The notes beneath the pieces are model-generated. The model saw nothing but the letters and a program-made list of their open reading frames with translations, ran no database searches and was not told where the DNA came from. 64,000 bases of DNA, taken from NCBI GenBank assembly GCA_010015655.1, contig ML976671.1:345126-409125 (forward strand), read 5' to 3'. Positions 6,650 through 37,223 of this stretch are shown here, one piece after another. The DNA is from Bimuria novae-zelandiae CBS 107.79. Lineage: Eukaryota; Ascomycota; Dothideomycetes; Pleosporales; Didymosphaeriaceae. The position numbers and the translations under genes were made by a program. Position 1 is the stretch's first letter. Each line of letters starts with the position of its first letter.

Positions 6650-8733
6650 ATGCTTCGACTATACACACTCCTCGTTCTAGTAGCCCTAACATGCGCCCTC
6701 AACTTGACATACGACTACATTATCGTCGGCGGCGGCCTCACCGGCCTCGTCGTAGCCAATCACCTCTCCGAGAATCCTAACAGTAACTAACCACCCACCC
6801 AGCCCCTCACCCACCCATCCGTCCTTCTCTAACACACCCCTTCCCCGTAGAAACCGTCCTCGTAATCGAAAACGGCTACATCGACGACAGCTTCGACCGC
6901 CAAGCCCCCTACCTCTCCGGCGTCCTAAACAGAGACCCTCCCCTCTACAAATCCCTAATCTCCACCCCAGACCCAGAGTTGGGTAATCACTCGTTTTCGG
7001 TCGCCGTGGGGAACGTGCTGGGCGGCGGGTCGGTGGTACATGGGATGATGTTGGATCGCGGGTCCGACGCGGACTATGACGCGTGGGCGGAGCTGGGGAA
7101 TGTAGGCTGGGGATGGGACGGGCTGGAAGCGTATTTTAAGAAGCCTTTTACGTTTACGGCGCCGAGTACGGAGACGGTACGTATAGCCCCGTAACCCTTC
7201 CAAAGTGGTAGCTTGGTGATAAGATGGGTTGGGGCTTATATGTTGTGTGGGTCTAGGTGGAAGAGCTGGGTATCATGTATGATGAGAGTGTGTACGGGGA
7301 TGGACTAGTTCAGGCGACGATCTAGAGCTTTTAGTTCCCGGATTACGTGAGGGTGTTTGCGGCGTGGAAGAGCGAGAGTGGTGTGCCTAAGCCGAAGGAG
7401 GGTTTTGCGAGGCCGCTGGGTGCGTTTTGGGCGCCTAATACGGTGGATAATAGGACGGGGACAAGGTCGAGTGCTAAGACGGCGTACTACGACCCCGTTA
7501 AGTTGACGGCTGATTTGAAGCTCTTGGTGGGAACGCATGTGGACGAGATTTTACTCGCTGAGAGCAACGGTGCCGTTAAGGCGACAGGTGTGAGGATGAC
7601 GCAGCGGAACGCTTCAGATGTTAGCCATGCGTTTGCATCGCTTGAAGTGATACTCGCCGCAGGCAGTATATTCACGCCGCATCTCCTCAGGGTCTCCGGT
7701 ATAGGTCCTGCGGATGTCCTACAAGCCGCCAACATCCCCGTAAAAGTCGATCTACCCGGCGTAGGTTCGAACCTCCAAGAGCATATACCAGCGTACACTT
7801 CATTCAATGTATCCAACCTCGCCTTCCCAAACGCCAACACTCTCGCCACAAACCCCTCTTTCAACGCGTCCGCCGAAGAGCAATACGCCCAGCACAGAAC
7901 CGGCCCCTGGGCAACAACCTACTGCAACGCCCTCGCCTTCATCCCCCTCGCGCACTTCGCACCAAGATCCTCCGCCCTCGCCACAGAGCTCGAAGCCCAA
8001 CAGCCCACAGCGTACCTACCCTCGCGGTACACTACCACGCCCACCATCCTGGCCGGCTACCTCCGCCAGCGTAGCATCCTCCTACACCAATTTCGCGGTG
8101 ACCAAAACTACTCCGCCGGCGCCGGTGAACTCCCCACTCAGCCATCCGGCCGCGCCAGCGCCGCCCTCCAGAAACCCCTGTCCCGCGGCACCGTCACGCT
8201 CAATGCTACAGACCCGCACGGCTACCCGGTTGTAACTTACCACTCGTTGCAGAACCCCGTAGACAAAGCCATACTGTGCGACCTCATACGGTTCAACCGC
8301 AGGCAATGGGCGTCTCCCGCGTTGGCACACTACGCGCCGGTTGAAAACGTGCCGGGGGCGGAGTTCGTCGCAGACGATGCAATCATCGAGGCACTGGTTG
8401 CAAAGGACGTGATCAAGCCGGCATTTGCGCACCCATCGGGGTCGTGTGAGATGATGCTACAGGAGCTAGGAGGGTGCGTGAGCAATGGGTTGCTTGTGTA
8501 TGTGGTGAGAGGGTTGAGTATTGTGGATGCAAGTATGGAGGTCTCCACCCTTCGTGAGTTGTAAATACTGACATCGTGTCTGCGTGTAGGTATCCTTCCT
8601 ATGATACCGGCTACGCATTTGCAGGCGACGATGTATGCGATTGTATGTGTCCCAGTGTGTGTCTAGAATCCATTGTGAGGCTGACTGCGACTAGGCGGAG
8701 AAGGCGGCGGATATTATCAAGGACAGACGGTAG
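6650..8733 (+). pseudogene. GMC oxidoreductase pseudogene (glucose-methanol-choline / aryl-alcohol oxidase type)
   Basis: Five exons can be joined (6650-6782, 6851-7176, 7257-8553, 8590-8642, 8695-8733), giving 616 codons, the usual length for a secreted FAD-dependent alcohol oxidase. The start codon begins MLRLYTLLVLVALTCALN, a probable signal peptide; an upstream ATG at 6635 is also possible. The FAD-binding dinucleotide motif YIIVGGGLTGLVVANHL follows at once. The catalytic-His region AFAHPSGSCEMM and the C-terminal IPATHLQATMYAIAEKAADII are kept. Two in-frame TAG codons interrupt exon 3 at 7323-7325 and 7332-7334. Both fall where CAG (Gln) would fit the family, so each needs a single C-to-T change. 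The gene ends about 140 bp before a RIP-mutated block. As written it cannot make the full protein; it would otherwise oxidise alcohols to produce H2O2. Confidence 0.85.
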
Positions 8734-8869
8734 TACGAAGGCAGCGATCGAATTAACAGGTGCTAGTGTGCGATGAAGCGAGGGAATGGGAATATAGTTA
8801 TGTAATATTTAACCAGAGGGTAGGTAGAGAGCGTATAGGATACGGAGAAGAAAGAACTACCATGTGTGC

Positions 8870-10240
8870 GGGGTTAATACACGCCAAGCCTTAATACGCG
8901 TTTAACACTAAAATAGCTTAATTAAACTTAAGGCTATAGAGCTCTATATAAAAGCTATTTTTATAAAGCTTTTTAGTAAAGAGGTTTATAGGACTTAATA
9001 TTAACTTTAGCTATAAAAATTTACTTAGAGTTTTAATAACCTAGCCCTTACGCGACTAAGGCTCTTAGGGCTATAAAATAGTACTTAAGGTCTTAGTAGT
9101 ATTTATAGCCTTAATAGTAAGCCTTTTTTTTAAGTAGCTTTTATAGCTAGCTTAAAGATATCTTTTTTACGCTTTTTAATAAATTTTAAATAATTCTAAA
9201 GTTATTACTAAGCCTTATAAGTCTACTATTTTTATATTTACTTAGTAGCTTAATTAGTCTTCTCTTTTACTTAAGCTACTTAAGTTTTAGTCCTTATAAT
9301 ACGCCTCACTTATTGTAGCCTTAACTTAAGTTATTTACTAGTCTTATAGGCCTTAGCTACCTTACGTTTCTAAAGCTATAGCTACTCTTTATTAGCCTCC
9401 TTTTGCTATATAAGGCTACGTGTTTTCTATATATAGCTTAGTGACTAGAAAACAGTTCCCCTATAGTACTTATTAGGCTAATTAGGCTATAAAAGCTTAT
9501 TATGCTTTCTTTACCTCTTCTTATTACCTAGTACTACTCTTAGGCCCTTATTTTTATATAATAGTAGTTATTTTTATACTATAATTAAGTGCACTATTTA
9601 GCTTAGCTTTTTATTTCTTTATTATCCTTTATACCTACTATAGCCTTTATAAGTTATTTAACTTTCCTATAGTTAGACGCGCTAAGTACTTAAGTTAAGA
9701 TTTTTTTTTTACTTAGGTAGGCTATTTTAGGTAAATCTTTTTAATATAGTTTTTAAATCAAGTAGCGATATACCTATAACCTTAAAGACCTTAAGAATTA
9801 ATAGCGACTTAAATAAAATCTACTAGGCCTTTTAGAATAGACTAAAAAAGTCGTTTTTAGTAACTAGTAATAGCCTTTAGCTTTTATATAGGAAGGCTAG
9901 GAGCTTAGCTAAGTACGTAGTAAAAAAAGGTTTAAATATAATAATATTAAGTAGTCATAGTATATAAGTTAAATAAAGTAGAAATATAGTAAGGAGGATC
10001 TTGTTTTAATTATAGTAATTTATAAAATTTATAATAAGGTAGAATTTATAATTATTAAGAATAAGTAATTAGTAAGAGCATTAAGCTTTCACTTTAATAC
10101 TATAATTAAATACTTATTTAAGCTACGTAAGGCTTATATCGTTATTTATCTAGCTTAAGCCTGATAAGGTAATAAAGACTAAGTAATATATGGGATTAAT
10201 TTCTTCTGCCTAGCTTAATTATAGGCACTAAGGGCCTGTC
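8870..10240 (-). mobile_element. RIP-degraded relic of a Fot1/pogo-like transposon
   Basis: AT-rich block without ORFs. It is collinear with the Fot1-like element at 60.2-62.35 kb in the same orientation. The segment at 10105-10154 matches 61481-61530 at 41 of 50 positions, seven of the nine differences being C-to-T-like transitions with T or A here. The segment from 9441 (GTGACTAGAAAACAG) matches the one from 60811. The offset is nearly constant (51370 and 51376), so the two are homologous over at least 700 bp. No clear terminal repeat was found at the left edge near 8870. Exact borders are uncertain. Confidence 0.65.
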
Positions 10241-10763
10241 TAATAAATAAGCGCTAGATTTAACGCTAATCTATTAGCGCATATATAAGCTAGGATTAAG
10301 ATTTACTTATAACTGCTATTCTAGATTGCCTGCCTTACTTTCTTGCTTTCGTATATCTGCCTACTAAAGATCCTCTTTGAACGGAAGGTGATACCAAGTA
10401 GGATATCCTTTTCGTCTATATTATATATATAGCGAGCTTTAATGCTATATTAGCTTATTTTCTACTATAAAAAATTAAAATATAGGCGGTACTTTGCCTC
10501 TAAGTTAGCCTAATAGTAATTACTATTTATACTAGCTGTTTAGCGTAAAATAAGCTAAGCCCTATTCTATTTAATAAATTAACTATCTTAGTATATACTA
10601 ATATTAGTTTTAGCTATATATATTATAAAACTCTAAATTATGTATTTTATAAGTAGTAGGTTTTATTAAGTAAACTTTTATATATAGCGTATACGGTCCT
10701 ACTCTTATTAAAGACTAAGTTTTTATTAATCAATTCCCTAAACTATACGCGCTTGCATTTTAA
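10241..10763. other. AT-rich sequence of unresolved origin
   Basis: It lies between the Fot1-like relic and the inverted-arm element. It contains AGCGCTAGATTTAACGCTAA and partial palindromes near 10245-10285. It is probably more transposon debris; I could not assign it. Confidence 0.4.
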
Positions 10764-12131
10764 ACTAACGTATATATATAGCAAGTGGCCGGGCATAGCG
10801 AGTGGCCGAAAATGCCAAGGCCCTATTAAAATTTACACTCTACACAATAGTACAGAACGCGCATAAATAGTTATAAGAAATTATAGTAGGCTAATCTACT
10901 TAGAATTTACTTATACCTTTTTTTACACATGCGCGAATTCTGCCTAGCCTTACTATAATATTTATAGCGCTATTAAGTTAATTTACGTTTATTAGCGCGC
11001 ACCCTATTTTTTTCTATATACTATAAAGTTTTTTAAAGTAGCTAGTTACTAGCTATTAATAGCTATAAAACCTTTTTCCTGCTATAGTTGCTTTCTCTTA
11101 TATAGTTTTTATTACGTAGTAGTTTTATTAGTAGCTTAAAGCTTAGCGTTATACTTAGCTATTAATATTAAAAAATACGCTATTAGCTTAGCGCCTTTTA
11201 TAAGCTTTTTAACTACTTTAATTTTACTTATTAAGGAACTATTTAGGTACCTTTAAATCCTTTCCTTTCCTAGCATTAATTATAACCCTAATTTTAAAAT
11301 ATTATTTAGTATTTATAACTACTATATATTATCGCGTATAGTATAAGGTAAAGGCGTATATAGATAAATGTTAAGCTTTAATATTACTACTTTTAGGTTA
11401 AGAAAAACAAGGGTAGCACCTTAAAAGCTTTTTTAAATATTACTTTATTATATACTTTTTAATTTGCTGTAATACTTAAAGCCTAAAAGAACTACTTTTA
11501 TTAATATTATGCTTATTATAAAGCAAGTCTTAATAAAGTTATAAGTATCTTTATCTAGAATACTATACTTAGCTTTAGTATTCTCTATAAGCTAGAACTA
11601 GCCCTATATAATCTAAGGATCCTTATAGAAGGCTCTTTTATAGTTATACTTTTAATTAAACTTAACTTAGAGTTCTAGCTAGCGCTTAATAAAGTAATAA
11701 AACTACTTTTAACTAATTAGCTTATTATAGCGTATAGCTAGTAAAATATTAGCTATATTTTTTATAGTAGTAAGTTAAAATAGAAATTCTCGCGTATTTA
11801 AATTAAGTATATATTATATAATTACCTACTTCTCTCTTATAGTAAATCTTATTAAGTTAAATATATAATTATATTAAAAGGTAGTTCTAGCGCGTCTTTA
11901 TTATAGTATTTTTTAATAATACTATAAACTATTATAGCGCGTAAAATTAAAAGTAGCATATCTCCTTTAATAGCTTAAAGCGTAAGCTATAATTAGGCCT
12001 TTTTTAATTTAAGTAGTTTATTACGTTGTTAAGATATTGCGTTATACTATAGCTAATAGAACATTTTAATAGGGTCTTAGCATTTTCGGTCACTTGCTAT
12101 GCCCGACAACTCGCTATGCATGTACGTTAGT
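10764..12131. mobile_element. RIP-degraded DNA transposon with 69-bp terminal inverted repeats
   Basis: The arm at 10764-10832 and the reverse complement of 12063-12131 agree at 59 of 69 positions, and nine of the ten differences are transitions, the signature of RIP. Each arm contains two tandem copies of an AGCRAGTGGCCG-like motif about 17 bp apart. The 1,368-bp interior is AT-rich and has no ORF, so the element is either a non-autonomous copy or a mutated transposase gene. No convincing target duplication remains outside the arms. It may be nested next to or inside the Fot1-like relic on its left. Confidence 0.7.
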
Positions 12132-27928: not shown

Positions 27929-29200
27929 ATGTTCCGACACCAAGTCCTCTGGAGGAGCTTCTCGCTTTTCAGACGCACTCCGACTTCTGCGATCGTCAAA
28001 TCGGCAGCCAAAGATGGACACAATGCGACACGAATACAGAGAGTGCGCATCACGCAGCGCTTTTTCACAAAATCACGTATGGTAGGCACTGCAGTCGTCG
28101 CTGTAGGCGCTTGGAGACTCTTCGTGTGGCTCGACGAGGAGGTTGAAGACGAAGAAGAAGTTTCAGCCCAAGTGCGGCGCGTGCGAAGACCACCCATACG
28201 GCAGGACGACGCAGAGGACGATAAAGGTGGACGCGAGATCACAGACGAGGAAGAGGAAGAACTCGAAGACGACGAGGAGGAGGAAGAAGACGATGAGGGC
28301 TTGATTTTTCTTCCCACGGGCTTCTCGCGGCCCAGGCCGAGACGGTTCTACAGAGGCTCGGACCCAGAATGGCAAACGTTTATTCGACTGGCCCCAGACC
28401 GGAAGCGAATGGAAAAGATCAGAGAGGAGCTGATAACAACCGTGCGCGACCTTGCCACAAAGAACGCACACATCAAGATGCATCTTGGGAAGATCGACAC
28501 TACGAAGGGAAAGGTGTGGATTGAGGTCAAATTCCCGGACGGCCCTCCATTAGAGTACGAGCAACCAGGCATTGAACTCACAGAGGATCTCACCATCAGG
28601 AAAACCACGAGGCCAGTCCACGAGATGCACCACAAGCGGCTAGCGAGGGTGCTCATGCCCACCGGCGTCATGAATTCGGTCTACTACGACATGAAGAGGA
28701 GGATGTTCGCCTCGTGGCAAGACTTCAAGCGGTATACCGGCCTGGAAGAGACCAGACCGACCGCGCAAAGCGTCATCAAAGGACTCCCTTTGCCCCCCGC
28801 CGTTCCGGTATCTCCCACGCAAACACCCTCTGCCCCGAACACACCCGCCGCGCCTGCGTCCGCGGATACGGAGAAGCAAGTCACGTCCCCATTGCCACCC
28901 TCACCGTCGAACTCTGCCTTGGAAAAACTCGGACTATCACTCCCTGGTCCAGAACAAGTCCCAACGATGGACCTCTCATACTTCCGCCAAATATTTCGAA
29001 AGTACCACAAACACATGGCCATCGAGCCCCCGCGAGGCACCTTCATAGTATCCGGCTTGGTCGAAATCATCGGTGACAGAGCGAAGATGACGCTCGACGT
29101 GATGAGTCTGTACGATCCCAATGTGGGGAAGTACGTCTTGCTGCAAGCGAGGGTGCGCAGCATCACGCCGTACAAGCAGAGGCCGAGGGGCGGGCCGTAG
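27929..29200 (+). CDS. Conserved fungal protein, probably mitochondrial membrane-associated
   Basis: One uninterrupted 423-residue frame. The first ~50 residues (MFRHQVLWRSFSLFRRTPTS...) are rich in Arg, Ser and Thr and lack acidic residues apart from one Asp, as in a mitochondrial presequence. A hydrophobic segment (VGTAVVAVGAWRLFVWL) follows. Next comes a long acidic stretch of Glu and Asp near residues 70-125, then a conserved folded part beginning FYRGSDPEWQTFIRLAPDRKR. A Pro/Ser/Thr linker near residues 290-340 precedes a C-terminal block (YFRQIFRKYHKHMAIEPPRGTFIVSG). I recognise the overall pattern from filamentous fungi but cannot name a characterised homologue. The prediction of mitochondrial location is inference from the N-terminus. 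Confidence 0.7.
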   Translation: MFRHQVLWRSFSLFRRTPTSAIVKSAAKDGHNATRIQRVRITQRFFTKSRMVGTAVVAVGAWRLFVWLDEEVEDEEEVSAQVRRVRRPPIRQDDAEDDKGGREITDEEEEELEDDEEEEEDDEGLIFLPTGFSRPRPRRFYRGSDPEWQTFIRLAPDRKRMEKIREELITTVRDLATKNAHIKMHLGKIDTTKGKVWIEVKFPDGPPLEYEQPGIELTEDLTIRKTTRPVHEMHHKRLARVLMPTGVMNSVYYDMKRRMFASWQDFKRYTGLEETRPTAQSVIKGLPLPPAVPVSPTQTPSAPNTPAAPASADTEKQVTSPLPPSPSNSALEKLGLSLPGPEQVPTMDLSYFRQIFRKYHKHMAIEPPRGTFIVSGLVEIIGDRAKMTLDVMSLYDPNVGKYVLLQARVRSITPYKQRPRGGP

Positions 29201-29505
29201 TGATTCAAACTAGATGATGATGGATTGGAGCCGTTTGGATGATTGCATCAGCGTTGGGCGTTGTGGCGAGCATGGACATATAGCATCACCCAGAGTATGG
29301 TGCAAGTGTACAAAATATGTATTCTTCGGCGTATTGGACAGAGATACCTTTGTTTGGGTCAAACATTAGATGCGGAAGTCCGCATAATGCAACAGTAAGC
29401 ATTAAATTTTCTCGTGCTGTATCGTTTTGAAGGAGGTTTTCGTGTGATGGTTGTCATCGTCACTCGTTGGCGCTGAAGGGGACTGATGATGTTTTGAGGC
29501 TCAGG

Positions 29506-32500
29506 TATAAATACCGCTCTGTCTCTCGCTGAACTTGACTTTTCCTTTACACACACACTACTACCGCCTTCTGGTGGACTAAAAACACATACGGCAATTT
29601 TCATGGCGCTCCCTCTCTGGTGGACTAAAACAAAGAAGGGAGTCGAGCATGTGCTTGCCGCATGGTTGGGCTAAAAAAATGAGGCAGTCACGTTTCCATG
29701 GCGCTCCTTCTGGCGGACTAAAATCTAAGACGGGTACTCAACATGTGCCTCCCGGGCTAAAATCAACAGTTGGACCGACTGATGTGCGCATCCCCGCCGT
29801 GGACTCTAAAAATCCCTCCACCGTCTAGTTATGGAGTCTTTGCCTTTGGGCTGAAATTTGAAAACATGAGGGGCTATGTGTTGCTCCAGGCCCCTGTTTC
29901 CAAAGGCGGAAAGAGGATTGCGCGGTGTGCTGAGTCCTACCGCGGTTGTCTGCGCCTTGGATCGAAAAACGAGTGCGGGAAAGGGCGTTGTGTTTTCCCA
30001 GGCTCCTACATCAGCCAGAACGCGAGGCTTGCGTGCCGTGCTAAGTCCTACCGCGGTCCTCTGAGCCTTGGAGCGAAAATCGACGGTGGAAAGGCCCATG
30101 TGTTTTCCCAGGGTACTGCTTGAGCCGATGTTTCCCGGAGCATTGAGGTATAAAATCTCTATGTTGGTTGAGAAGGATGCCCAAGTGTTCTTCACATCTA
30201 CCACAGTCCTAGAGTGACTAAAATGGCTTGTTGCCGAAGTCATGTGCTTCTCCGCGGTGGTGGACTAAAAAACCAGCCCCAGAGGGAACACGGGCTCTTC
30301 GTTCCTGGACTAAAAAGCGCAGTTGTTGAAGGTTATGTGCTCCCTGCTCCACGGGATCTAAAAAGATGAAAAGGATGAAACCATGTGCCGCTCTGTGCCC
30401 TGGCGTCAAAAAAAAAGGCGCACGAGGATAAGATATGACGTCTTGCTTCTGTGACATCGATCCAAAAAGACTTCGCGGTTGTGTATGTGCGACTTCTGGG
30501 GTTTGCGGCATCAAGTCAGCGTTGCATATGTATCTCCGTCCATGGGAAAGGGCTCGGCTCTTAGACGTTCGAGGGGACTAAAGATCAGAACAAAAATGTC
30601 CATGTGGCTTTCTGTGGCTTTGGAATAAAATTCCAGCTCGATGAGCATAATGTGGCGGTCCGCGTTGCTGGCAGAGATGAAAACTCAAGAGAAGACGTTC
30701 TATGTGCATGTAGCGGCACGTGGGTATCAAGTCAAAAAAACGTGGGAGGATACGGTATGGGACTGTCTTTCGCTCGGTCACACCCAAAAAGAAGAAGAAA
30801 GAGTTCAAATGGCTGCTTTCGGGGTTAATCTTGTCTAAAACACGACGATGCGGACGCATATGGCTCGCCTTGCCGCGTGTTTCGAAATAAGGGAGATGAT
30901 AATCATGTGGGGCTCTCGGGCACTTATGGGGCAGTCGAAAAAGGTGCTCCAAGAATATATGTGGTGTCACTCGCTGCGGTTTGCTAAATCAACATCCTTC
31001 AATAGTCAAGCCTATGGTTTTTCCCGCTGGGAGTCTTTATACGCTTGCCCACCTCTTTTGGGAATGAATGTCAGCCTCAAAATCCGGAGGGTTGAATTCA
31101 TATGTGTGAGGGTGCATGTGTGAGCATTCACTCATGTTCTTCGTCAGCACGGCTCAGTATCGTCTCATCCGGCGTGGGGCTGAATTTAAAGTATAAAAAA
31201 GCTCGGAATTATGGTATGCTTCGGCTTTACTTCCACACACTACACCACTACCAGAAGTGGACTAAAACTAAGACGGATGCATGACATGTGGCTGGACTAG
31301 AAACGGATGTGGTACCCTGGCATGTGCTGCGTTCGGTGTGACTGCGTATAACAATCAGCACAACCCCGCTATGGACGTCTTCCGTCGCTCTTGCAATCCA
31401 AAAAACTTTGTTCGTACCACGGATGAAGATATTTGCCTCTTGCAGAAACAAAGCTTGCGTTTTCAACTCTCATGTAAACGACGATCGTGCTGTTCATCGC
31501 CAATTACTGGCGTGGAAGAAATCTCAAGTGCTATCAAGCTGGCATGGAAGTATAAATACTCCGTCCTCTGGGCTCGAACTTCTGCCCCTCACACCACGAC
31601 TCCACAAAGGTGGACTAAAATTAGCAGGATCAACTCCTATGTCGTCCTCTGCGGTTCTGCCACTGGTCTAAAAATGCCTTGAACATCCTCGACATTCGGA
31701 TTCTTGCCCGCACTGGGACATGGACCAAAATCAACCCCGCCATACTCCATGTGTCTTCGGAGTCTGAGTGACTGGAAAGTGCAAGCGCCGTGAGCATAGA
31801 GCGTTTTCAGCTCTTCCTTTTCATGTTTCGGTGGTCGATCTTTCATCACCACACGCCAATGCTGAAGTCATCCGAACCTCCCTCAAACCGGCTACGCAGT
31901 ACTTAAACGCTCAATCTTCCCACGTCCTTCCTTTTCTCACACTACACCATCTGTATAACGAATAAAATATATCCAGGCCCGATTCATGTGGGTCGCGACT
32001 AAAATATCCTCGGAGTGGTTTTTTTGTCACGATTATTTTTGAACAGTTCTCCGGGGGAACACACTTTTTGTACTTGGGCGATCACTACCTACTTCTGCAT
32101 TCGTTTCTCTTGATCCTCGAAGAGGAACTTATGTCGTTTATTCTGCGTCTCTCGATCATCACCAAAACTCTTCCGCACTACCCGACATGTGGAAATCCGC
32201 GGGGTTTGCGTCTCTAAATATACAGAACTTGGGGTTATGGTTAACTTTGCTTCCTTGCGGTTTTATACCTCACCTGGGCAATGATGGCATTCCATTCATG
32301 CATTGCACGATGGTACTCAATCTTCTCACCATCAGCGGACGGATTCTCTTTCGCACCATTGTATCAACACTGGACATCTGGAAGACTAAAACTTCAAGAA
32401 TTTCAAGGCCGTATGGCTCTTCACGTCGCCTTTGTGTACTAAAATGAGAGATTCCGATCCCTATGCGGTCGTGCCGGCTACTTCATCAAAGTATGAGAAC

Positions 32501-34010
32501 TAAAAACAACATCGCGAAACTCTCATGGGTGTCTTTTCTGTCCTGTCTGACTTTTTCGGTGAGCGTGTTCAACTTGATGCACATCATCGTGAAGGAGCGG
32601 TGGGTGGAGAAAAGGAGACGTGTCCGTCCCGTTTTTCTATTTTACCTTATAAATATATTTATCCTCCTGCCAATGGCACTCTTCGCACATGGATATTCCA
32701 CTCTGCTGGAATGAACAAAACTCCCAGATCGTGGGACTATGGAGATCTCGGCGCCTCTTTGAGGGGCTAAAGTAACATTGTTCTACCAGCATGAAATCTT
32801 GCGCGCCTTGCGTGCCCATTGGATTTTCATAAACTATGATACTCTATGTCAACTTTGTGGATTATGGTATTCCTTGAAGCTGATCACCCACAACACTAGA
32901 GCTAGTTTCATAGAGATGCTCACCATCAGATAGTAGTGAAGATAGATACAACTTGTGCTCATCACATCTCCCCTGTCCTACTTATATAAATATTTCTCAC
33001 TTCGTGATCACTTTTCCTCCCACTAACATTACCACTGCTACTTCAGTGTGGTCTAAAAATTAGCAACAAAACCGTTGATGTTGCTTCTGTACTTCTGAGG
33101 AGTGACTAAAATTGGAAAAGTACGATTGCCATGGTGTTGTTTGTTTTTCTTTCGTACACTAAAAGCATAGAAGATTGTGCTTCTGGTGACCTCCACCTGC
33201 AGCTACCCTGAACCTGAGGTAACATCTGTGCTCTTAATCTCTGTCTTGATGAAGGCGGTCATCATTAATTGTCAGTGCGGAGGACGCTCCCGTGCGGCTG
33301 AAGAATCGTTGTCAGATCCCGTATAAACAATCCCGTTCTCCTTGCTATTTCTTTCTTTCCACACAATACCAAAAGCACTAGGATTAGAGTGATTGAAATT
33401 CTGCAAGAAACATTGGATGTGGCTTCGCTGTGCCGCTGTCGCGGACTAAAACCGTCAAGGAACTGAATCATGCACGTGTGTTTCTACGTAAGAGTGCCAA
33501 CGAAAGTTCTATTCCCGATTGTCATGGCGTCTCTCTGTCACTCATGTTACGGCAGAAATGAGCCATCCTTCCCCTAAAATAATTGATACTCATTGCAGAG
33601 AAACAGCGATGATGCCGGCAAAAGGGAAACCATCTGGTCATCCCTTGGACGTCCTGAGTACATATATCACGGAAACATCGGCCAAACTGCTACCCTACTC
33701 ACAATACCACCTCTACAATCAAAAAAGACTATAAAGATATCCCCGACCATTGCATGTGGCTGGACTAAAATTGATGGCAAAAACCGACTTATGTGGTTTA
33801 GTTCGCTCCCGGATCTTGACTAAAAAGAACGAACAGAACCCGGAAAGTTGTTCTTTGCTGTTTGTCTTCCAAAATGGAAGGACAACACGCTCATGCACTC
33901 GCCGAGATTAACTCTCCATGCCATCACTCGTTGACATAGGAGCGAATAAAATTCGAGATCTTAGAGTTGTATGTGCTCCCTTCTGTTGGGCAGTAAATAA
34001 AAGGTCCTGG
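29506..34010 (+). repeat. Degenerate non-coding tandem array, 45-50-bp modules marked by GGACTAAAA and ATGTG
   Basis: About 50 copies of a (GG)ACTAAAA-like word recur along the plus strand, for example at 29573, 29621, 29712, 30259, 30305, 31258, 31611, 33051, 33438 and 33756. In regular stretches successive copies lie 39-54 bp apart. About 18-20 bases after each, ATGTG or ATGG usually occurs, often followed by CTCC or CTTC. Some copies have a short stem just before the motif, for example CCAC-AAAG-GTGG at 31602 and CACTG-CTACTT-CAGTG at 33033, with different paired bases. The interval has no long ORF and no frame shared between modules, and it is not AT-rich, so RIP does not explain it. Decay is strong; a proper alignment is needed for a consensus. 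Confidence 0.7.
29506..34010 (+). promoter_or_regulatory. Eleven TATA-like promoter modules within the array, ~337-bp higher-order period
   Basis: TATA-like octamers occur at 29506, 30149, 31192, 31551, 31899, 32314, 32648, 32985, 33322, 33659 and 33994; the best are TATAAATA, the weakest (TACTCAAT, TACATATA, TAAATAAA) are poor. Each is followed at +37 to +47 by a CACA/TACCAC-like element after a pyrimidine-rich stretch. Most are followed at +60 to +67 by ACTAAAA or a variant. The last four intervals are 337, 337, 337 and 335 bp; earlier ones are 334, 348, 359, 415 and approximate multiples of 320-350. The order TATA, pyrimidine-rich initiator-like leader, short stem is what a Pol II core promoter with a short 5' leader would look like. 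Transcription is not shown by sequence alone. Confidence 0.55.
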
Positions 34011-34536
34011 GCGTACAAAAAATACTGTTCCATACACTCTTGTCGCCCCAAGTAGCTGCTATAAGGACTAGGATCTGTGAGTAAGCAAAGATCGCGACGA
34101 TGGTGAATACCCTCATCAGTCGTTGCGATTGATAATGGCAAAGTGCCCTTGCTTCTTGTATGCACATCAGTAAGCTCAGATGGTAAATGCTCGAAAATAT
34201 GGTGTCACGTCAGAAATTCCTGCGCGGGCATTAGTAGCAAGGAACTGCAGTCTTTGCCATGCATAGACGCCGGCGTGTATAAGGAGTGCTGCTTGCAAGT
34301 ATAACCCAGCAGACATCCTCAGGTTGCCTTCACTGCAGAAAGCTCCGGCTCATCTTGCGATAACCGTGTCGATGGACCCTGATTATCATTGAGCTGGCAA
34401 TAAGCACGGTAGGATGATGGAAGGAAATGAACCGTCTTAACCTCGCCGGCTCTACGGGCAGGAGCCCGAAAGCATAAATTTCATTAGAGTGACTATGCGA
34501 CTGTCGATCGTGATATCACATTCTTCATTAGCCGAA

Positions 34537-37223
34537 TTATTCCCAGACAAGCTCGCTGGGGACCTCGACGGAAGCTGGCAGTTCGTTTGAAGGAGCCGAT
34601 TTGCCCTTCTTTTTCTTCTTCTTGATTGCAGGAGAAGCGCTCACTAGGCCCAGAGACTTCCACCCATGCGTACTTCCTTCTTCTGAGAACCGCACTTCCT
34701 CCTCCGCAACAGGAGGTTCTTCAACTGCAGCGGCTGGCGGTTCGGAAAGTTCAAAGCCATTTGGTGTATGAGACAATGTGACGCTCTCTACAATTTGATC
34801 ATATATTGTTGCTGGCTCCGCTGTCGGCTTTCCTTCGGTACTCGAGTCAGGGTCAATTGTCCCGAATTGATCTGGATCGGAGGAGTTGTCAGCTGCGAGT
34901 CCGTTTCCAAACGCTGCATTCCGCACAGCCAAGGCATCTGACCATCATTAGCACTGTCCGATAATAGGCTCGAGCGAAATCGTACCGTGGAAGTGGGCAG
35001 GAGGCACTTCTTCCACGCTCTTCAGTTCCCGCAGACCCTCTTCCAGCACCTTGAGTTTCTCGCTACAGCGAGCGCGTTCGGCCGATGACTCTTCATCTTC
35101 GACAGCTAGGGAGGTGACAGTCTCATCATTGATATCCAGCACGTCTTCCGGGCAGAACAATGTCGGAAGCTTTTCGATCAGACAGGCCTCAACTGCTAAC
35201 ACAGCAAAGTCATCAATGACTTTCTTGAGTGCGACCTGCGATGCGTCAGATGACTGCCTTGTTGAGAGTGATTGACCTTTGCACTGTGGCACCGTGCTTA
35301 GGGTGAAAGAGTCAGAGTTAGACAAACCTTGTAGTATGCTTCCATGAAGTCCGTAGCTATAGAGCTTGCGTAATTGTTCATATCAGCTTCGGTCTTCGTA
35401 AGTAGGACCTGTGTCAAGCTGTTCACATTGATGTTGCGGTTGACGTATTCTTCAGATGTGTAGTCTGCACCAAAGAAGCCTGCTAGTGATTTCTTGATCT
35501 CGCGGGCGCGACGCTTGTCTTGGGCCTTCTGCACATTCTCGGTCAAGTAGTGATTATAAGTGATGGGGTGACCAGTCTCATGCGGTTGGAGGAGCTCTTT
35601 CACCTTCTCACGTAGTTGCTGGGTCAGGATCTCCAGTCGAGGATAAATGAGCTGTCGAAGAAGCCCTTCGAAAGTGGACCGGTCGCAGTAGGTTGACAGC
35701 ACCGAGCGTACAACGAAGTGCACCGCTTCAACTATCTTTTCCATATGATCATTGACCAGGTTACCCCAGGGTTCGCGTTGCTCGCGGAAGAGCTGACCGA
35801 TTATGAGAGGATCGAAGGTACCGGGTAGCTCGCGTCCTCTGCTTCGTTTGAGTAGGGTCTTGACCTTCGACACGTACTCTTTGCGGGAGATCTGTCGAGG
35901 ACCTTTTGCCGATCCTTCTTCCACAATGGCATATGTGTGCCCATCCTTGCGCATCACCTCCGCGAATTCCGTCAAAGTGTTCTGCAAAATAGCTCTCAGG
36001 CGCTTGCGGTATCCAGTCTCTGTGGAGGCATCTCCGAAGAACGGGTCGGAATACATACCATCGGCCGCAGCTTTGACCAAATTAGAGAAGGATTGACTCA
36101 CGTGCAAGAGATATCGCCGCTGCTCCTGCAAGGTAGCGCGGGAAGCGCCTAGAATCTCCAACCTGTGATTGCAATCTTGAATCCCTTCTTGAATCTGACT
36201 TAGAACTTCGGGGAGCTGCGCAAGAATTTGGATCTTTAAGATCTTGCTGAGTCTAGGCTTCAGAGCATGGACTCCTACCTGGGTAGGATGAAGTGATGTC
36301 CATACACCAGAAGCGAAGAACTTCTCTTCGGCAAGATTGCGTTCTTGCAGAGTTGAGTTTCTTGAGGCATAATCTCTATTGCGCAGAATGTGCCATCCCA
36401 GCCGGAAGTTGACCTCCTTGTTCTGGGCTAGCTCGACGTAGAAGCGTTCCATATCAGAACCCTCATCTAGAGTGTCTGGCTTGGTGATCAGTCCAAGGGT
36501 ACGGACGCCATTGGGGTCGATATCACGGGCGTATTTGGTAATAGCTTGGTTGTTGAAGTCGTTCTTCGCGGAAACTACGGCTAGAATGATGCTTCGCTGG
36601 CTCCTCATGTACCTAAGAACAAGAGACTTGACTTTATCGCTGTCCGCATCAGATTGCGCACGACTGCCAGCCTGAAAGAGCCCTGGCAGATCCACAAGGG
36701 TTAGATGCGGTTGTTCGGGACCTGAAAGTTCCAGACGAAGGATATCCGAGCTAAAAACTTTAGTGCTGTCGTCGATACCCATGGCCTTCTTCGCGGATTC
36801 GATGATCTCATCTAGCTGTAGGTTTTCTGCCGTGACCGAGATTTCACATTTGAATTCGAGTAATTTCGCCTTTTCTGCTTCCGAACGCTCCTCATTGACA
36901 CCGGGGTGAATGCGTATCTTGATAGGCGAGATTGGACCACGTCGAAGAATCAATTCAGTCGCAAATCTGGTGCAAAGATTGTCCTTGCTGGGGAAAGTCA
37001 CGCCCGAAATGGCCTCCAGGACTGAGCTTTTTCCGGATGATTGCTCGCCACAAACAACGATCTCAGGGAGGTCGATGTAGCGACTGATTCCTTGCGAGCG
37101 TAGGTTGTCGACAACGTCTAATAGACTTTTTGTGTCCTTGGATTGGAGTATACTGCTGCTGCTGTTCGCGCCATCCACGACGGTAGTTCCATCCGCACCG
37201 TTGGCGTGGTCTTCTTCAGCCAT
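34537..37223 (-). CDS. Dynamin-superfamily GTPase (fungal Mx/Vps1-like)
   Basis: Three exons (37223-35328, 35235-34986, 34937-34537) give about 848 residues. The GTPase domain has G1 GEQSSGKSSVLEAISG, the G2 region LCTRFATEL, G3 DLPGLF and G4 TKPD, followed by the middle/stalk region. Intron 1 uses donor GTTTGT and the CTGAC...GCAG acceptor that joins MEAYYK to VALKKVIDD, which restores the stalk helix before the C-terminal part; a nearer acceptor at 35284 would insert about 15 non-conserved residues. The tail after residue 700 is acidic and Pro-rich and ends with a run of six Lys (KKKKKKGK). The exact subfamily is not clear: it resembles fungal proteins annotated as interferon-induced or dynamin-like GTPases. 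Likely role is membrane remodelling. MAEEDHANG was chosen as start; an in-frame ATG at 37316 would add 31 residues. Confidence 0.9.

Follow-up and report, generated by a model that had tools for sequence, protein, structure and literature searches.

The window analysed in this study is a 64-kb stretch of the genome (77.4 Mb in total) of the fungus Bimuria novae-zelandiae CBS 107.79, and its interval 29506-34010 carries an array of short modules, each consisting of a G-rich ACTAAAA(A) word, 18 or 19 nearly unconstrained bases (the insert) and a second word, YATGKG. An earlier, sequence-only reading of this stretch had described some 50 ACTAAAA-type words recurring regularly on one strand, with ATGTG about 20 bases after each. 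The regular, one-stranded recurrence was confirmed: all 25 CTAAAA words of the interval lie on its + strand and none on the - strand, GGACTAAAA is present 9 times, and ATGTG was found 26 times on the + strand versus 5 times on the - strand. There is indeed a second word at a fixed distance, but it is more generally ATG, and it follows CTAAAA by 18 or 19 nucleotides (nt). The shuffled-sequence control that the same reading had named was also run, and CTAAAA-N18/19-ATG, which occurs 16 times in the interval, averaged 0.10 occurrences over 500 dinucleotide shuffles and never exceeded 2. In addition, a two-box profile trained exclusively on 197 modules from other loci identified 43 modules with a score of at least 6 on the + strand of the array (background approximately 0.7), as well as 9 on the + strand outside the array (59.5 kb) and another 9 over the entire - strand. 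The features of the array are listed below in window coordinates; modules were located with the profile.

29506..33975, + strand: whole array, 43 modules with a score of at least 6 and several TATA-led units (profile and promoter listing)
29506..29573, + strand: unit promoter and leader with TATAAATA and CACACACACTACTACC, then the first module
29574..29607, + strand: module GTGGACTAAAA - 18 nt - ATGGC, score 21.0
29620..29653, + strand: module GTGGACTAAAA - 18 nt - ATGTG, score 23.7
29713..29747, + strand: module GCGGACTAAAA - 19 nt - ATGTG, its insert without any second genomic copy when up to 2 mismatches were allowed (genome search)
29752..29835, + strand: two modules, 29752-29786 and 29801-29835
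29846..30102, + strand: weaker modules at 29846 and 30069, the latter within a direct repeat of 111 bp x 1.8
30149..30212, + strand: unit promoter (TATAAAA) and leader
30213..30387, + strand: four modules, at 30213, 30260, 30305 and 30353
30457..30963, + strand: seven modules of mixed strength, starting from 30457 to 30931
31192..31256, + strand: unit promoter (TATAAAA) and leader CACACACTACACCACTACC
31257..31427, + strand: three modules, at 31257, 31292 and 31393
31551..31609, + strand: unit promoter (TATAAATAC) and leader
31610..31753, + strand: three modules, at 31610, 31663 and 31720
31957..32241, + strand: four modules, at 31957, 31994, 32157 and 32209, with a dispersed repeat piece inside (about 32019-32114)
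32381..32795, + strand: five modules, at 32381, 32434, 32495, 32710 and 32762
32983..33047, + strand: TATATAAATA box and leader, preceding the module at 33048
33048..33187, + strand: three modules at 53-bp spacing, at 33048, 33101 and 33154
33388..33975, + strand: final seven modules, at 33388, 33441, 33724, 33760, 33815, 33864 and 33941

The array did not prove to be a single tandem repeat of 45-50 bp, as had been proposed. Within the interval, Tandem Repeats Finder detected the patch of 111 bp x 1.8 and three runs of 9-10-bp units and nothing else, and thus no homogeneous tandem unit of the satellite kind; it finds little because the inserts differ, so that most of each module is unrepeated. 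The larger period of the array resembles that of transcription units, approximately 200-400 bp with repeated TATA boxes. The 111-bp direct repeat (29913-30112) contains two weak module-like stretches, and their inserts differ there too. The dispersed repeat piece at 32019-32114 has at least 10 further genome copies of 43-110 bp, 74-95% identical, among the matches listed.

The claims that the array is non-coding without a shared open reading frame (ORF) and that it is not debris of repeat-induced point mutation (RIP) both held. The distances from ATG to the next TAA are spread evenly over the frames (62/71/66), no kept reading frame of the kind expected of a protein-coding repeat gene was detected, the GC content is 0.47 in the array versus 0.51 in the window, and the words are confined to one strand. 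It might still be argued that the ATG words open small reading frames for short peptides, as the modules end in ATG, although they do so by definition; with the mixture of 18- and 19-nt inserts breaking the frame, the even frame distribution and the failure to find an ORF common to the arrays, we consider this very improbable indeed.

The same architecture was found at other loci. The two boxes read approximately GGGRACTAAAA(A) and YATGKG, and in 17 array stretches the gap from CTAAAA to ATG measures 18 or 19 nt in 136 of 191 cases, whereas every other distance from 10 to 31 accounts for 0 to 8 cases; C14:79 kb and C9:759 kb were omitted from this count as chance, being lone strict matches with gaps of 26 and 28. 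In seven later loci, which were picked from matches to ACTAAAA-N18/19-YATGKG, 69 of 99 cases showed the same gap. In 87.9 kb, the core of the module, C[TC]AAAA-N18/19-ATG, was counted 218 times in array orientation versus once in the opposite one; the seven later loci contribute another 86, with a single case in the opposite orientation, and C31:243 kb another 10. Between the boxes, information stays at or below 0.16 bits per insert column; exceptions are the final one or two bases (C/T, up to 0.30) and, in the 19-nt class, the first base, which prefers A (0.40 bits). T has a frequency of 0.24-0.29 at the first insert base, that is, no T preference. The inserts are A-rich and T-poor (A/T 0.289/0.208), and the linkers between modules are A-poor (0.188/0.246). 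A reading of the modules as poly(A) sites (AAAA, 18 nt, YA, GU) was rejected because the gap is too rigid for such sites, and a reading as intron boundaries was likewise rejected, as inspection by eye revealed no GT...AG.

A search of the genome with the module pattern, as the sequence-only reading had suggested, revealed that the family is present far beyond this interval. The strict pattern GGACTAAAA-N12-30-ATGTG yielded 57 matches in the genome versus 3 in a reversed control; these matches fall into 37 clusters spread over 24 contigs, and each of the 13 clusters with more than one match is single-stranded. ACTAAAA-N18/19-YATGKG yielded 123 matches versus 10 in the control. An unrelated dispersed repeat, ACTAAAATCTACGCTCTATTCTGATGTATGTG, mimics the module pattern and accounts for 19 of 100 among the matches listed (e.g., C6:40500 and C20:905742). 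Prokaryote genomes gave two matches, each in an otherwise ordinary contig without an array, and viral contigs gave none. Rfam searches returned no match at E<=1 in window positions 28000-36000 and none at the gathering threshold in nine loci, so that no box C/D or H/ACA small nucleolar RNA (snoRNA) or other Rfam family was recognized by score. Likewise, as far as the accessible texts go, no described element like these arrays appeared in the open literature searched, outside which most subscription journals lie. The Rfam and literature results agree with the earlier statement that the array resembles no described element. Its general interpretation is thus supported; what it had overlooked is that the gap is fixed at 18/19 nt, that promoters are present, that the family extends over the genome and that the inserts are hypervariable.

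The modules are grouped behind TATAWAA in units of approximately 200-400 bp, where a TATA box, a start resembling TCTTCACAC and, upstream, a TGATGA element tend to be present. A TCTTCACACA-like word lies, by inspection, approximately 35-40 bp past the TATA start, and the CTAAAA words cluster 59-73 bp from the TATA. Promoters of this layout number 47 under a loose definition and 37 under a strict one; at distances of 20-79 bp upstream of the strict promoters, TGATGA was counted 18 times, versus about 1.4 expected, and is accompanied by an inverted CATCA or CACCA at some promoters. T-runs are present inside the arrays and also inside inserts, and because they lie within the arrays, RNA polymerase II appears the more probable enzyme and transcription by RNA polymerase III is not favoured. 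Each module might instead be a miniature promoter or start site, with TAAAA 24-25 bp before a YA start, comparable to nematode 21U-RNA genes. The rigid distance, the terminal YA and the upstream G-rich element fit such an arrangement, but the ordinary TATA boxes of the same units have a CAC start-like word approximately 35-40 bp downstream, which is a different distance, and we regard the idea as highly doubtful.

The promoters also bear on the suggestion that the arrays are remnants of a satellite or tandem repeat that has decayed and lost any function, with box-like words surviving by chance. Decay would not preserve the 18/19-nt gap, the TATA boxes and the start-like words while mainly erasing the inserts, and the strand bias of 218 versus 1 argues in the same direction. 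This explanation can draw on the degeneracy of the modules, on units that have lost boxes and on a genome rich in reverse-transcriptase copies with stops; we consider it improbable.

The inserts were compared with the parts of the units that surround them. At C2:1319 kb, eight tandem units of approximately 200 bp keep their promoter, leader and linkers. Pairwise identities in the insert slots were 0.44, 0.45 and 0.475 (shuffled 0.41, 0.44 and 0.435), and those of the leader, linker 1 and linker 2 were 0.65, 0.82 and 0.63 (shuffled 0.48, 0.45 and 0.46). When the boxes were cut away, the leader and linkers still showed 0.63, 0.69 and 0.53 versus 0.48, 0.58 and 0.45 in shuffles, and over all 28 pairs without boxes the excess was clear for the leader. 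At C78:194-199 kb, where ten consecutive TATA-like starts occur and 5 of 9 intervals measure 284-298 bp, a linker is identical at 24 of 24 positions in neighbouring units, and the inserts flanking it agree at 0.42 and 0.33. Among 4,484 within-array module pairs, mean insert identity was 0.32-0.34 at flank identities up to 0.65, 0.38 at 0.65-0.75 (n=16) and 0.33 above that (n=4); some of these high-flank pairs may be non-homologous because certain flanks are of low complexity, a problem to which tandem units are less exposed. Few paralogous inserts are alike, identity exceeding 0.6 in only 15 of the 4,484 pairs.

A further comparison used six close unit pairs, picked by eye and comprising 16 insert slots. 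Their flanks (leader and linkers without boxes) are 62-85% identical, whereas 12 of the 16 insert slots stand at 0.47 or below and two others at 0.50 and 0.58. Eleven of the 16 inserts are more diverged than the box-free flanks (P<0.01 at the flank rate), and the number is 13 when the boxes are left in the flanks. Between different arrays, the 9- and 10-mers common to inserts are at shuffle level in both sense and antisense; in sense orientation, shared 8-mers number 133 versus 107.6 (standard deviation (sd) 9.6) in mononucleotide shuffles, and shared 11-mers two versus 0.7 (sd 0.6). The linkers look array-specific by inspection.

The arrays therefore combine a fixed architecture, TATA-led units, strandedness, a genome-wide spread and hypervariable inserts. 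We are not aware of any eukaryotic locus in which conserved boxes frame hypervariable inserts of fixed length within promoter-led arrays. Judging from these sequence features, we suggest, with a probability of roughly 0.45, that the units are transcripts carrying a hypervariable library of approximately 19-nt guides and that they represent a new fungal non-coding RNA gene family of several dozen members. A unit would be transcribed from its TATA box, probably by RNA polymerase II, with a start near TCTTCACAC, as the promoter words suggest. The RNA would contain mostly 2 to 6 cassettes, each with a 5' handle (G-rich, ACUAAAA), an insert of 18-19 nt and a 3' mark (YAUGKG). A protein complex would bind handle and mark and excise or hold the insert at a fixed length, and the insert would serve as a guide against other nucleic acids, with the insert library turning over, by replacement or by selection for change, more rapidly than the remainder of the unit. 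Argonaute is the obvious candidate for the guide protein; we infer the transcription, processing, loading and target recognition alike.

The main alternative to guides is a two-box ruler, in which a protein or ribonucleoprotein contacts both boxes in the transcript or the DNA and the 18-19 bases between them are a freely drifting spacer, so that the array would act as a scaffold, sponge or nuclear-retention RNA. The conserved boxes and spacing, the low information of the inserts and the target tests made, which found none, all accord with a ruler. However, free drift should equal that of unconstrained parts, and yet 11 of the 16 inserts exceed the box-free flanks in the pairs described above; this argument is weakened if the flanks are under a constraint of their own. 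We find the ruler unlikely on present evidence, and the guide reading is ranked first because a ruler poorly explains inserts that change faster than linkers which look array-specific.

Several observations weigh against guides. First, two of the 16 slots in the close pairs are conserved (0.79 and 0.83). The occurrence of conserved and random inserts in one and the same unit pair, on the other hand, counts for the guide reading, as it suggests wholesale replacement; gradual change under selection is a possible alternative. Over all 28 pairs at C2:1319 kb without boxes, the linker excess over shuffles is modest, and conserved linkers could reflect constraint or conversion. Second, the self-structure of the inserts did not differ clearly from that of shuffles, and a hairpin of the G-rich box with the upstream linker, similar to that of a Cas13 repeat, was not found (mean stem 4.15 versus 4.18 in shuffles, sd 0.05). 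The composite upstream element alone is unspecific, with 18 matches genome-wide versus 15 in the control. Third, no ORF of at least 120 aa and no gene family was common to the array flanks examined, a search aimed at Cas families not having been made. Fourth, the inserts showed no excess over controls of matches to 12 reverse-transcriptase loci or of antisense matches to the upstream neighbour regions; where the sense orientation did show an excess, against an array's own flank, we provisionally attribute it to modules inside that flank matching themselves. Insert 10-mers shared in sense with the rest of the window number 145 versus 121.3 (sd 8.0) in mononucleotide shuffles and are the sole class clearly above them, longer words gave no clear excess over shuffles, and these short-word excesses, like those of 8-mers between arrays, may be explicable by composition. 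Three of the several hundred inserts were searched against the whole genome at up to 2 mismatches: each was genome-unique at up to 1 mismatch, one had two places at 2 mismatches, and the reversed controls gave one or two matches each.

As to machinery, 19 Piwi-domain stretches were found in the genome and grouped by hand into approximately 12 places, which are suggestive only as a pointer to guide proteins. Several of them carry stops in a six-frame reading, a further point against the guide reading; the stops may be introns or decay. Four Argonautes have been reported for Botryosphaeria dothidea (PMC7325678). Six of the 12 places lie on contig C31 (217-236 kb and 633-694 kb), which might represent a local expansion of Argonaute genes or a graveyard of them; in our own reading, a hAT-like transposase ORF adjoins one of these. 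The array at C31:243 kb is 6-7 kb from a Piwi-like gene, an arrangement with a rough chance of 0.1 that was excluded as evidence.

By analogy, the layout of two fixed words framing a variable insert of 18-19 letters resembles that of guide-RNA systems such as CRISPR (clustered regularly interspaced short palindromic repeats). Like prokaryotic CRISPR arrays, the arrays have a leader and promoter, repeat parts that are array-specific, apparent insert turnover, and inserts of fixed length that are nearly all different and unique. Unlike them, they lie in a eukaryotic genome, their inserts are 18-19 nt long, their repeats are degenerate and their linkers vary in length, each array has several TATA boxes, and there is no repeat hairpin; instead of near-identical direct repeats, only the boxes are general and linkers are alike only within an array. 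As a further similarity, the handle GGGGACTAAAA is identical to the 3'-terminal bases of a Leptotrichia Cas13a repeat. Type I Piwi-interacting RNA (piRNA) genes of Caenorhabditis, the 21U-RNA genes, are similar in being RNA polymerase II units with a short motif at a fixed distance from a unique sequence of approximately 20 nt, clustered and forming a diverse library without obvious targets. They differ in that the inserts here lie between two boxes, several per TATA box, and in that the 5' T is not seen at the first insert base, which may differ from the true RNA end. The TIGR arrays of prokaryotes and phages likewise alternate tandem guide parts with short conserved boxes, but those boxes are different ones, and the present host is a eukaryote. 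Box C/D snoRNA clusters share polycistronic guide RNAs and short boxes at a fixed distance, but the boxes here are not RUGAUGA/CUGA, Rfam gave no match and the inserts are far more variable. Fungal microRNA-like RNA (milRNA) loci are small-RNA sources in filamentous fungi; here, in contrast, neither a box-upstream linker hairpin nor insert structure was seen when these parts were folded. In the accessible texts of the open literature searched, no report of a guide-like array of such a layout in a fungus was found.

If the inserts are guides, fungi would possess a diversifying small-RNA repertoire, and the way in which filamentous fungi recognize viruses, transposons or non-self could be put to a direct test. 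A more far-reaching version would be a eukaryotic equivalent of immunity by CRISPR or piRNAs, with nuclear promoter-driven arrays, active replacement of 18-19-nt guides and some of the approximately 12 Piwi proteins acting against viruses, transposons or foreign nuclei; this we hold to be unlikely. Even if the inserts are mere spacers, the arrays would still represent something new, namely a regular family of two-box RNA genes that have their promoters in common.

The neighbouring protein in the window has its best named matches in Karstenula rhodostoma (66%) and Pseudopithomyces chartarum (65%), with another match at 69%, and its nearest named relatives (Karstenula, Pseudopithomyces and Didymosphaeria) place the fungus in the Pleosporales and fit the Dothideomycete setting that the sequence-only reading had assumed. 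A Pfam family was recognized in 5 of 9 neighbour proteins, all of them ordinary: dynamin, a pyridoxal-phosphate (PLP) enzyme with a CBS domain, a helicase with HA2 domains, a carboxypeptidase M14 and a carnitine acyltransferase. In an informal count over 11 stretches decidable from ORF lengths, the arrays seemingly begin directly behind the end of a gene that is oriented the same way; C32:192 kb was decided only with Pfam, and at least four other stretches were undecided or unused. Pfam backs this orientation at three loci, and homologues back it for the gene in the window. Both in the window and at C14:1028 kb, the gene that follows is convergent, and at C2:1321-1322 kb a repetitive open frame of approximately 297 aa lies downstream of the array on the other strand. 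Elsewhere in the window, the AT-rich stretch at 8001-12000, whose two 2-kb steps have a GC content of 0.40 and 0.26, resembles a transposon island mutated by RIP.

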